Shown here piece after piece: positions 5,485 through 9,935 of a stretch of DNA of 64,000 nt (position 1 is its first letter; each line of letters opens with the position of its first letter). The notes beneath the pieces are model-generated. The model had not been told where the DNA came from. It was given only the letters and a program-made list of their open reading frames with translations, and ran no database searches. The stretch is from an uncultured Paracoccaceae bacterium (GTDB lineage Bacteria; Pseudomonadota; Alphaproteobacteria; Rhodobacterales; Rhodobacteraceae): positions 448,208 through 512,207 of the forward strand of contig CANMEQ010000001.1 in NCBI GenBank assembly GCA_947497065.1, in the 5' to 3' direction. The position numbers and the translations under genes were made by a program.

Positions 5485-6414
5485 ATGCAACAAGGCCACC
5501 CAATGGATTGGGACAAACTTCGGATTTTCCATGCCGTTGCAGACGCAGGGTCCCTGACCCATGCGGGCGATGTATTGCATCTCTCCCAATCGGCCGTGTC
5601 CCGCCAAATCCGCGCGCTAGAGGACTCTCTTGCAACCGTTTTGTTCCACCGCCATGCCCGCGGCCTGATCCTGACCGAACAGGGCGAGCTTTTGTTTGAC
5701 GCCACCAAATCCATGTCTCGCCGCCTAGATGCCGCCTCGGCCCGCATCAAAGACAGCGCCGAGGAAGTCTTTGGCGAACTTAAAGTCACCACCACAACCG
5801 GCTTTGGCACCATGTGGCTCGCACCGCGCCTGCCGAAACTTTATGAGAAATACCCAGACCTGAACATCGACCTCATGCTCGAAGAACGTGTTCTTGATCT
5901 TCCCATGCGCGAAGCAGATGTGGCGATCCGGATGAAAGAGCCCTCGCAGGCCGATCTGATCCGCAAGAAACTCATGTCCGTGCGCATGCGTCTCTATGCG
6001 TCACAAGAATACCTCGACAAGAACGGCGCGATTGATAGCGTCGAAGAAATCGGCAACCACCGTCTGATCTGTCAGGCGCCAAATGCCTTCCAAGTCTCCG
6101 CTGGCGCGACGCTCACTGAACACCTGCTCAGCTACGACAAACCGCGTCTTTTGCACATGAACAACTACTTCGGCGTGCTCCAAGGGGTGCTTTCCGATCT
6201 TGGAATCGGTGTTTTGCCCGATTACCTGATCGAAGACTTCCCGCAGCTTGTGCGCGTGTTGCCCGATGTTGAAAGCGGCGAAGTCCCTACCTTCCTTGCC
6301 TACCCCGAGGAATTGCGCCAATCCAAACGGATCATGGCCTTCCGCGACTTCGTTCAGGATGAAATCATCGCTCACCGCAAACGCATCCGCGATGCTGCCG
6401 CCGAGGGGGCATAG
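5485..6414 (+). CDS. LysR-family transcriptional regulator
   Basis: A 309-residue LysR regulator. The N-terminal winged helix-turn-helix spans about residues 8-68 (LTHAGDVLHLSQSAVSRQIR), followed by a linker helix and a substrate-binding domain with the usual GIGVLPDYL segment. I kept the ATG at 5485; a second ATG six codons later (5503, MDWDKLRIFHAV) matches the usual family N-terminus and could be the true start. Divergent from the acyltransferase-murI pair and followed by a probable small RNA and purL. The target and effector cannot be read from the sequence. Confidence 0.92.
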   Translation: MQQGHPMDWDKLRIFHAVADAGSLTHAGDVLHLSQSAVSRQIRALEDSLATVLFHRHARGLILTEQGELLFDATKSMSRRLDAASARIKDSAEEVFGELKVTTTTGFGTMWLAPRLPKLYEKYPDLNIDLMLEERVLDLPMREADVAIRMKEPSQADLIRKKLMSVRMRLYASQEYLDKNGAIDSVEEIGNHRLICQAPNAFQVSAGATLTEHLLSYDKPRLLHMNNYFGVLQGVLSDLGIGVLPDYLIEDFPQLVRVLPDVESGEVPTFLAYPEELRQSKRIMAFRDFVQDEIIAHRKRIRDAAAEGA

Positions 6415-6479
6415 TGACCGCCAGCACCACCCAAAGGCGTGACCTATGCACCACACGCATATCGGATTTGCTCTATATT

Positions 6480-6596
6480 GAAGCCATTCCCCTTGATCGA
6501 CTCAACTGTGCCTCTTAATTGGTCAGTATAAGGCAACGTTGTTGTTTTATACCTCCCTGTTGGACTTGCCGGGCCTTGCGCCCGGCTTTCTTTTTT
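6480..6596 (+). ncRNA. Candidate trans-acting small RNA, alpha-r8/suhB (MmgR)-like
   Basis: The 305-base gap between the LysR gene and purL holds a compact RNA-like element. A 12-bp stem (6526-6537 with 6541-6552, two G-U pairs, loop GTT) is followed by a single-stranded ACCTCCCTG and then by a rho-independent terminator. A good alphaproteobacterial -10 (CTATAT, 6473-6478) would start a transcript of about 110 nucleotides, although no clear -35 is visible. The exposed CCUCCCU, an anti-Shine-Dalgarno sequence between two hairpins, is the hallmark of the alpha-r8 family (MmgR of Sinorhizobium). The family match is from memory, so the assignment is probable but not certain. Confidence 0.6.
6568..6596 (+). 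terminator. Rho-independent terminator of the small RNA
   Basis: The perfect 7-bp stem GCCGGGC / GCCCGGC (6568-6574, 6580-6586) has loop CTTGC and is followed by TTTCTTTTTT. It lies 124 bases before purL, so it ends a short transcript rather than the LysR message alone. It could alternatively act as an attenuator in a purL leader. Confidence 0.85.
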
Positions 6597-6719
6597 CCAC
6601 CCCCCCAATTCCACCGATCTGCAGCCATCCTGCCTCTCGCACCGCTTGGGTGTGCAATCCCCGTTGAACCTGAACGCCCCTTGGCATAAAGGGTCCTCAA
6701 CGCACATGAGGGGACGCAC

Positions 6720-8879
6720 ATGCAAGAGCCGGCAATCACATCCGACCTGATCTCAGCCCACGGGCTTTCACCCGATGAATATGACCGTATCCTAGAGATT
6801 ATCGGACGCGAGCCGACCTTCACAGAACTCGGCATCTTCTCCGCCATGTGGAACGAGCACTGCTCTTACAAATCCTCCAAAAAGTGGCTCCGCACCCTTC
6901 CCACCGAAGGCCCACAGGTTATCTGCGGCCCTGGTGAGAACGCGGGCATCGTCGACATTGGCGACGGCCAAGCCATCGTTTTCAAAATGGAAAGCCACAA
7001 CCACCCCTCCTACATCGAACCCTACCAAGGTGCGGCCACCGGCGTGGGCGGCATCTTGCGCGATGTCTTCACAATGGGCGCACGGCCAATCGCGGCCATG
7101 AACTCCCTGTCCTTCGGCGAACCAAGCCACCCCAAAACACGCCAGCTCGTGCACGGCGTTGTCGAAGGCGTCGGCGGCTACGGCAACTGCTTTGGGGTTC
7201 CAACCGTCGGTGGCGAAGTTCGCTTTCACCCTGCCTACAACGGCAACTGCTTGGTAAACGCCTTCGCAGCTGGCCTCGCCGATGCAGATAAAATCTTCTA
7301 CTCCGCCGCTTCCGGCATCGGCATGCCCGTCGTCTACCTCGGGGCCAAAACCGGCCGCGACGGTGTGGGCGGCGCCACCATGGCCTCCGCTGAATTCGAC
7401 GACACAATCGAAGACAAACGTCCAACCGTTCAGGTCGGCGATCCCTTCACCGAAAAACGTCTGATGGAAGCCACCTTGGAACTCATGGCCACAGGCGCTG
7501 TGATCTCGATCCAAGATATGGGCGCGGCTGGTCTCACCTGCTCCGCCGTTGAAATGGGCGACAAAGGCGGCCTCGGCGTCAAGCTGAACCTCGAAGACGT
7601 GCCACAGCGCGAAGACAACATGACAGCGTACGAAATGATGCTGTCCGAGAGCCAAGAGCGCATGTTGATGGTGCTCAAGCCCGAACTCGAAGCCGAAGCC
7701 CGCGCCGTTTTCACCAAGTGGGACCTCGACTTTGCGATCGTCGGCGAAACCATCGCCGAAGACCGCTTCCTCGTGCTGCACAACGGCGAAGTCAAAGCCG
7801 ACCTGCCCTTGGCCACCCTCTCCGGCTCCGCCCCAGAATATGACCGCCCTTGGGTGGAAACTCCGGCAGCCGACCCCTTGGGCGACGTCCCCTCCATCGA
7901 TCCAATCGATGGCCTCAAAGCGTTGCTGTCCAGCCCCAACTACGCGGGCAAACAATGGGTCTATGAGCAATACGACAGCCAAGTCATGGCCGACACAATC
8001 CGCCAGCCCGGTCTGGGCGCAGGCATCGTGCGGGTCCACGGCACCGGCAAATCCATCGCCTTCACCTCTGACGTGACACCCCGCTACGTCAAAGCGAACC
8101 CAGAAATGGGCGGCGCGCAAGCCGTGGCCGAAGCCTACCGCAACCTCACAGCCGTCGGCGCCGTGCCACTGGCCACCACCGACAACATGAACTTCGGCAA
8201 CCCCGAAAAGCCTGAAATCATGGGCCAATTCGTGGGCGCCATCAAAGGCATCGGCAAAGCGGTTAGCGCGCTCGACATGCCTATCGTGTCCGGCAACGTG
8301 TCCCTGTACAACGAAACAGACGGCACAGGCATCCTGCCCACGCCCACCATCGGCGCTGTGGGCCTGCTGAAATCCGACGATGATCTGATCGCAGGCACCG
8401 CCCGCGAAGGCCACGTCGCCCTGCTCATCGGTGAAACCGCTGGCCACCTCGGCCAATCGGCCCTTCTAGCCGAAGTGTTCAACCGCGAAGAAGGCGATGC
8501 GCCAACCGTCGACCTCGACGCTGAAAAACGCAACGGTGACTTTATCCGCGCCAACCGCCAATGGATCGACGCCTGTACAGACCTCGCCGATGGTGGCCTA
8601 GCGCTCGCGGCCTTCGAGATGGCCGAAGCCGCCGAAACCGGCGTCAGCCTTGACGCCGAGGACACGCCAACCTTGTTCGGCGAAGACCAAGCCCGCTACC
8701 TCGTGGCCTGTAACTTCGACAAAGCCGAAGCCCTGATGCTGGAAGCTGGCAAAGCCGGCGTGCCCATCACCACAGTGGGTAAATTTGGCGGATCTGACGT
8801 GTCCTTCGGCGCCACATCAGCACCCCTCGCTGAACTGGCCACACTCTTCCGCAGCGCGTTTCACGACGCCATCGGTTAA
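6720..8879 (+). CDS. purL: Phosphoribosylformylglycinamidine synthase subunit PurL
   Basis: Fourth step of de novo purine synthesis: ATP- and glutamine-dependent amidation of FGAR to FGAM, working with PurS and PurQ. The 719-residue protein has the small-PurL architecture of two AIRS-like halves. Signatures include [18 protein letters not shown] near the N-terminus and [19 protein letters not shown]. The ATG is preceded by GAGGGGAC. A weak promoter, TTGAAC (6664-6669) and CATAAA (6685-6690), lies downstream of the small-RNA terminator, so purL probably has its own start. PurS and PurQ are not in the window. Confidence 0.97.
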
Positions 8880-9729: not shown

Positions 9730-9935
9730 TGCTGGGCTGGCTGACATGGGGCGGGATCGCCTTGGTGTTGGCCATTCTTGCGGACGACTGGCTCGCCAAA
9801 CGTCCGCGCCGCCCGCTCAGCCATATGAAACCAAATCCAAAATCCCTCAAAGGGATCACCGGAATGCAATCGCTTGACCAAACCCGGATCAATCAACAGA
9901 TTGCCCGCAAAAAGGACTATACCAATGACCGCTGA
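9729..9935 (+). CDS. Small membrane protein between bolA and grxD
   Basis: A 68-residue protein with one N-terminal membrane helix (about residues 3-17, [15 protein letters not shown]) and a basic hydrophilic tail. It starts inside the bolA stop (TGATG) and runs 11 bases into grxD, so all three genes are translationally coupled. I do not recognise a domain. Conserved placement between two Fe-S carrier genes suggests a membrane-linked helper, but this is inference; it could also be a coupling ORF without a function of its own. Confidence 0.65.

Follow-up and report, generated by a model that had tools for sequence, protein, structure and literature searches.

AbcR is an anti-Shine-Dalgarno small RNA (sRNA). 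It is described as acting on transporter messages (PMC5461406), and in Agrobacterium AbcR1 is reported to be activated by VtlR, whose published box is GCAT-N3-TG-N3-T (PMC7486931). The same source gives the trxB-vtlR gene order as conserved in the class, and the account of A. tumefaciens LsrB, the protein of structure 9hh1, states that LsrB appears unique to Rhizobiales (PMC11975290). Two further sRNAs are described from Rhodobacter sphaeroides: SorX, processed from the 3' end of an OmpR-type message, with its 5' end at 2,598,224, and SorY, reported to have its own promoter, a mapped start at 1,632,642 lying 7 nt past the -10 element, and takP as a target (PMC6238624). Elsewhere the SorY target is given as a malate transporter, transcription of sRNAs including SorY is placed under the control of RpoE, RpoHI and RpoHII (PMC8307010), and Hfq dependence is reported (PMC8307010, PMC7866481); the target, own promoter and Hfq binding of R. 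sphaeroides SorY are taken from these papers. A third group, the alpha-r8 RNAs, is described as lying beside an N-formylglutamate amidohydrolase gene in most species, with paralogues elsewhere (PMC12559287). Here we describe a locus in a genome placed in the same family as R. sphaeroides, the RNA of which is very probably the SorY orthologue of this genome, acting as an anti-Shine-Dalgarno RNA.

Locus between a LysR-type gene and purL

The window (the whole 64-kb stretch of DNA that was analysed) contains what looks like a real sRNA between a gene for a LysR-type regulator and purL, which we take as a separate transcription unit (Table 1). A preliminary description of this DNA had placed a candidate anti-Shine-Dalgarno sRNA here, ending ~124 bases before purL, and this position, the 12-bp hairpin (two of the 12 pairs being G-U), the exposed CCUCCCU and the strong terminator were all borne out. 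The core ACCTCCCTG was likewise present at 6551-6559, but not fully single-stranded as had been stated, since A6551 and C6552 are paired in the predicted hairpin. CTATAT, which had been read as the -10 element, does occur at 6473-6478, between the palindrome and the promoter kept in relatives; as a promoter it had no counterpart in aligned relatives when these were compared by eye, and elements like CTTGAT-N16-CCTAAAT are kept instead. By analogy with the R. sphaeroides start, transcription would begin near 6527 and yield an RNA of ~70 nt in place of the 110-120 nt first suggested. Folded as a single strand, 6473-6600 did better than expected by chance, with a z of -2.65, and 1 of 200 dinucleotide shuffles folded equally well.

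Table 1. Features of the SorY-type sRNA locus, in window positions
Feature	Position	Strand	Basis
LysR-type regulator gene, LsrB/VtlR-like	5485..6414	+	Pfam HTH_1 and LysR_substrate domains; closest solved structure 9hh1
TATGC-N7-GCATA palindrome, putative LysR-protein site	6445..6461	.	ATGC-N7-GCAT kept in relatives
GCATATCGG	6457-6465		One base off the VtlR box form
-35 element CTTGAT	6492..6497	+	TTG-type -35 kept in relatives
-10 element CTTAATT, spacer 16	6514..6520	+	Promoter layout kept in relatives
SorY-type sRNA, predicted ~70 nt transcript	6527..6596	+	Rfam SorX match; start by analogy with R. sphaeroides SorY
5' hairpin, 12 bp	6526..6552	+	Arms 6526-6537/6541-6552; predicted fold
Conserved pairing region ACCTCCCTGTTGGACTT	6551..6567	+	15/17 columns invariant in 61 sequences selected by this core
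Intrinsic terminator	6568..6596	+	GCCGGGC/GCCCGGC stem 6568-6586, then TTTCTTTTTT to 6596
purL, downstream neighbour	6720..8879	+	NCBIfam PurL, 963.7 bits; ATG at 6720

Judged by gene order, SorY is the nearest experimentally known RNA. One genome of the family (G051) was taken as R. sphaeroides 2.4.1 because its SorX match (2598225-2598299) and its second match, SorY (1632636-1632725), agree with the published coordinates, and because one of its TRAP proteins matches the solved entry 2hzk, which we take to be TakP of R. sphaeroides, over all 365 residues. SorY is there preceded by an orthologous LysR gene (74% identity) and followed by purL, and since this LysR - RNA - purL order is the same as in the window, we take the window RNA to be the SorY orthologue; the claim is one of orthology by gene order, not of membership in the Rfam SorY family. 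Both loci have LysR upstream, purL downstream, the same kind of promoter, a 5' hairpin, ACCUCCCUGUUGGACUU and a terminator. The window hairpin differs in being shorter and of other sequence, and a clear takP orthologue was not found in this genome, where the nearest TRAP proteins are 33% identical. The divergent hairpin and the -10 element CTTAATT count against SorY identity.

Conservation, promoter and upstream palindrome

Conservation was assessed in 120 genomes of the family, of which 116 had a PurL; DNA upstream of purL (~1.5-1.6 kb) was taken from 102, three of these could not be oriented, and 99 were examined. Cores were those found with at most one change from CCTCCCTGTTGGACTT, using a script that permitted three changes and required CTCCCTGT. 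The core was present in 61 of these regions, a LysR match in 60 and both in 58. Two regions had LysR without the core, one (L063) with a degenerate core, CTTCCCTGTTGGACTG, and one (L141) with a distant LysR on the opposite strand. Cores without a LysR match occurred in only 3 of 39 LysR-less regions, and all three lay at the far limit of the DNA retrieved. Fourteen of the 38 core-less regions were followed further, namely those for which the matches listed included one to SorX at a distance of 1.5-10.9 kb from purL; LysR and core lay together in all 14 (the genome of L141 included), with the core 134-187 nt past the end of LysR homology and the strict form of the palindrome in 12. The distance from core to purL varied from 123 to 1464 nt in the 61 regions; the 14 further loci had 1.5-10.9 kb between the two. 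In the cases examined, the RNA stays linked to the LysR gene rather than to purL.

When the 61 sequences were aligned, ACCTCCCTGTTGGACTT showed 15 invariant columns out of 17, a figure that is somewhat overstated because the sequences were selected by this core (with tolerance). The 5' arm had a mean pairwise identity of 29%, and at least eight pairs were nonetheless predicted in 61/61 relatives. RNAalifold gave only five pairs on the alignment (A1), since hairpins of differing length do not line up there, and the hairpin was therefore tested per sequence: its mean z was -3.35, with 59/61 below -1, and that of an upstream control stretch was -1.04, with 24/61 below -1. The shuffled controls for this hairpin and for the CTTG, palindrome and VtlR-box tests below preserve base composition only.

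A TTG-type -35 followed by a -10 at a spacing of 15-17 was found in 57 of 59 relatives (spacer 16 in 48), in a count for which the best -10 downstream of every -35 was chosen and CTTG alone served as the sole control; CTTG lay 45-85 nt before the core in 54/59 and occurred in the control stretch in 6/59. Among the 59 sequences the -35 was CTTGAT in 31 and CTTGAA in 12, and the commoner forms of the -10 were CCTAAAT (14) and CATAAAT (7), with at least six of seven positions matched in 50/57. CTTGAT-N16-CTTAATT of the window aligned with CTTGAA-N16-CCTAAAT of R. sphaeroides, sequence evidence for its own promoter of the SorY kind. By its consensus we take a -35 of the CTTGAT type to be RpoH-type, and we infer a sigma factor of that type for the window promoter. 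The primary transcript would be ~70 nt long, made from its own RpoH-type promoter and ending at the strong terminator.

Upstream of the promoter, ATGC-N7-GCAT was exact in 36/59 relatives (shuffled mean 0.04), and the strict form [CT]ATGC-N7-GCAT[AG] was present in 34/59, with none in the control stretch and a shuffled mean of 0.0; the copy in Table 1 is the only strict match in the 64-kb window. At this site the window has GCAT-N3-GG-N3-T in place of the exact VtlR box. This GG form was also the commonest before SorY (32/59), followed by CG (11/59) and the exact VtlR box (4/59) in the box stretch; within 200 nt before SorY, the exact box was rare (6/59, shuffled mean 0.62). Searching whole genomes with the extended palindrome gave six sites in the window's own genome (1 for the reversed pattern used as control) and seven matches in the R. 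sphaeroides genome (control, 0), the latter at five places, two sites being matched on both strands. Two places were common to both genomes, one before SorY and the other, in reverse orientation, 127-138 nt before a gene for an Mrp/ApbC-type iron-sulfur carrier (G000:C6:218481-218501, L308; G051:C4:692794-692814, L303), a possible second target of the LysR regulator. Three of the six own-genome sites (L300, L304 and L306) fall within open reading frames or at their margins and may be due to chance. A site at G000:C8:65251-65271 (L310) was seen 112 nt before the elongation factor P gene of the own genome; none of the G051 sites was traced to an elongation factor P gene.

Downstream action is proposed by analogy with R. 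sphaeroides. The conserved ACCUCCCUGUUGGACUU would base-pair at the Shine-Dalgarno regions of messages for transporters, takP being the example in R. sphaeroides, and target expression would be lowered under oxidative stress, presumably by repression at the Shine-Dalgarno region. In a pairing test that ignored accessibility and used the first start codons of greedy open reading frames (ORFs), the start region of R. sphaeroides takP paired with the core at -22.8 kcal/mol, against a mean of -11.4 (sd 3.06, strongest -19.0 kcal/mol) for 49 greedy ORFs of the window. The TakP-like gene of the own genome gave -17.5 kcal/mol, less strong than two of the 49 control ORFs.

Competing assignments of the RNA

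The Rfam scores bear on two other assignments. The SorX model (RF02784) matched 6521-6593 with 48.3 bits, over its cut-off of 46.6, and this was the sole match over a curated cut-off in the whole window. In permissive searches the SorY model (RF02651) gave 37.4 bits here, under its cut-off of 111 and lower than the SorX score, and the suhB/MmgR model (RF00519) gave 19.1 bits.

The preliminary description had assigned the RNA to the alpha-r8/suhB (MmgR) group, acting on carbon- or nitrogen-storage messages, which we now regard as improbable. The layout and the anti-Shine-Dalgarno core are alike, with the hairpin, exposed stretch and terminator of alpha-r8/MmgR/SisA-D; suhB and ar15 (AbcR) share one Rfam clan, and the suhB model gave 28-35 bits in 5 of the 16 SorY-like loci from other families and 32.6 bits at one of 10 syntenic SorY loci, all below the cut-off of 41. 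A wider kinship of SorY with alpha-r8 is possible. The covariance score of the window RNA was nevertheless far under that cut-off and only eighth among 14 suhB matches in the own genome, all of them weak. The amidohydrolase gene that usually adjoins alpha-r8 (PMC12559287) is not adjacent either, the one found being on contig 4 and the window on contig 1, and SorY agrees with both the core and the linkage to LysR. Membership was rejected by score and genomic place. A third RNA of the same kind (L005, G000:C1:187278-187342, minus strand), with CCTCCCTGTTAGACTT and a terminator, was observed in this genome; at 26.9 bits it is the genome's best suhB match, below the cut-off, it scored 30.9 bits with R1, our own SorY-family model, and the gene beside it presumably encodes a HerA-like ATPase.

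That the window RNA is a second SorX copy, as its Rfam label has it, we hold to be very unlikely. It shares core and layout with SorX of R. sphaeroides, passes the SorX cut-off and scores higher with that model than with the SorY model. The own genome, however, has two SorX-model matches, and the better one (L001, 55.2 bits) already occupies the place 3' of an OmpR-type response-regulator gene. This L001 is the canonical SorX copy, R. sphaeroides SorX being reported as cut from an OmpR-type message (PMC6238624), whereas the window copy follows a LysR gene and has the SorY gene order and its own conserved promoter. The SorX model gave R. sphaeroides SorY itself 43.6 bits and passed its cut-off at three of nine other syntenic SorY loci. 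With the SorY model, the R. sphaeroides copy scored 115 and the nine other syntenic relatives 52.6-82.3, all nine missing the cut-off of 111, which therefore admits little beyond the founder. With the SorY cut-off reached by R. sphaeroides alone among the ten syntenic loci, and that of SorX by three others, automatic annotation will call SorY orthologues SorX or overlook them. Gene order led us to reject SorX identity despite an Rfam score in its favour. Across the family, a SorX-model match was found in 113 of the 120 genomes, over the cut-off in 95; among the matches listed, two on the same strand ~150 nt apart (G022:C183:9526-9599 and 9749-9823) form a possible tandem.

We give similarly little credence to the reading in which the RNA is chiefly the 3' untranslated part of the LysR transcript, freed by processing like SorX. 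In its favour, the predicted start lies only ~112 nt past the LysR stop; against it stand the promoter elements conserved between the LysR gene and the RNA, and the report of an own promoter for SorY in R. sphaeroides (PMC6238624). Least plausible is a cis-acting attenuator or leader of purL, the alternative offered by the preliminary description, which is suggested by the closeness of the terminator to purL in the window and was rejected on the linkage to the LysR gene, the core, in the loci examined, keeping its place behind LysR however far purL lies and being nearly confined to regions with LysR.

LysR protein, AbcR and the proposed cassette

The closest solved structure to the neighbouring LysR protein is 9hh1, at 252.9 bits with the next at 109.4, which makes LsrB/VtlR its nearest solved relative by sequence. 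At the aligned positions the window protein lacks cysteines C144 and C273 of LsrB, and LsrB-like redox sensing was rejected for it on that account. A sample of 96 alphaproteobacterial genomes, two of them from the own family, gave matches at E<=1e-60 in 52 (one match in 51 genomes, two in one) and none in 44. The best 30 matches were made into loci, 28 of them outside the own family, and a TrxB active-site motif lay upstream of LysR in 26 of these 28; unlike in other families, none was found near the LysR gene in the window genome or in L151. These matches and the upstream motif argue for LsrB being spread wider than the Rhizobiales.

Downstream of LysR, the strict palindrome was present in 14 of the 28 out-of-family loci and CTCCCTGT in 19, with both in 13 and neither in 8. 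Sixteen of the loci, chosen for a visible CTCCC motif, were scanned with Rfam models, and 10 of these had, just 3' of LysR, a SorX match that stayed under the SorX cut-off (E 4e-7 to 0.055). R1, a model with only five base pairs whose scores come mostly from core and terminator, matched 13/28 loci at E<=0.1 and missed 15; twelve of the matches lay within ~330 nt of the LysR stop, and one (L154) further on. In Rhizobiaceae, R1 found 0 of 7 loci, and each of six loci scanned had two ar15 (AbcR) copies at the same place. Within 300 nt, GCAT-N3-TG-N3-T occurred in 60 of 80 Rhizobiaceae loci (shuffled mean 1.38) and ATGC-N7-GCAT in 25 of the 80, these being the best 80 of at least 581 relatives and near one another.

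AbcR1 and AbcR2 (ar15) of Rhizobiaceae thus lie directly 3' of the LsrB/VtlR gene, as the window RNA lies beside an LsrB-like LysR gene; they have a related upstream box and an anti-Shine-Dalgarno action such as we propose for SorY. Unlike SorY, they have two pairing modules and another fold. The window RNA is not AbcR proper: ar15 (RF02345; cut-off 40) had no match at E<=1 in the own genome, and, since R1 in turn found none of the seven Rhizobiaceae loci, sequence homology between SorY and AbcR is unsupported. We propose that SorY stands in the LsrB/VtlR-AbcR place, held by AbcR sRNAs in relatives that live with plants and animals, a link resting on place, box and intermediate families, and one RNA may have been replaced by the other there. 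We lean, with reserve, towards the view that an LsrB/VtlR regulator with a downstream anti-Shine-Dalgarno sRNA is one ancestral alphaproteobacterial cassette, in which SorY would be the AbcR counterpart, under direct control of this LysR protein through ATGC-N7-GCAT. The cassette would, on balance, be represented by AbcR in Rhizobiaceae, by a two-module CTCCCA...CTCCCT RNA in many families and by SorY in Rhodobacteraceae. In the window, the LsrB/VtlR-type protein probably binds the palindrome and controls transcription of SorY, in the way that VtlR acts on AbcR1 in Agrobacterium; LysR control of SorY, taken alone, seems somewhat the better bet, and both LysR binding and SorY targets in this organism are proposed by analogy.

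SorY itself is known in R. sphaeroides. A literature search (SorY, AbcR, LysR, LsrB, Rhodobacter) returned no LsrB/VtlR-type neighbour of SorY, no palindrome before SorY and no SorY in the AbcR place, though the original SorY/SorX papers (Adnan 2015, Peng 2016), which lay outside the search, may already describe the LysR neighbour. For LsrB, Rhodobacter and sRNA together only PMC7486931 was found, and for AbcR1, Rhodobacterales and LysR nothing. Within the literature searched, the LsrB/VtlR-type neighbour, the palindrome and the AbcR place appear to be new.

For this genome, the name SorY replaces both the automated SorX label and the earlier alpha-r8 label. It also names a likely transcription factor for SorY together with its site, and ties SorY to the LsrB/VtlR-AbcR system. 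If the cassette proposal is true, one old circuit would have had two outcomes, the response to singlet oxygen in Rhodobacter and the network of transporters under AbcR.
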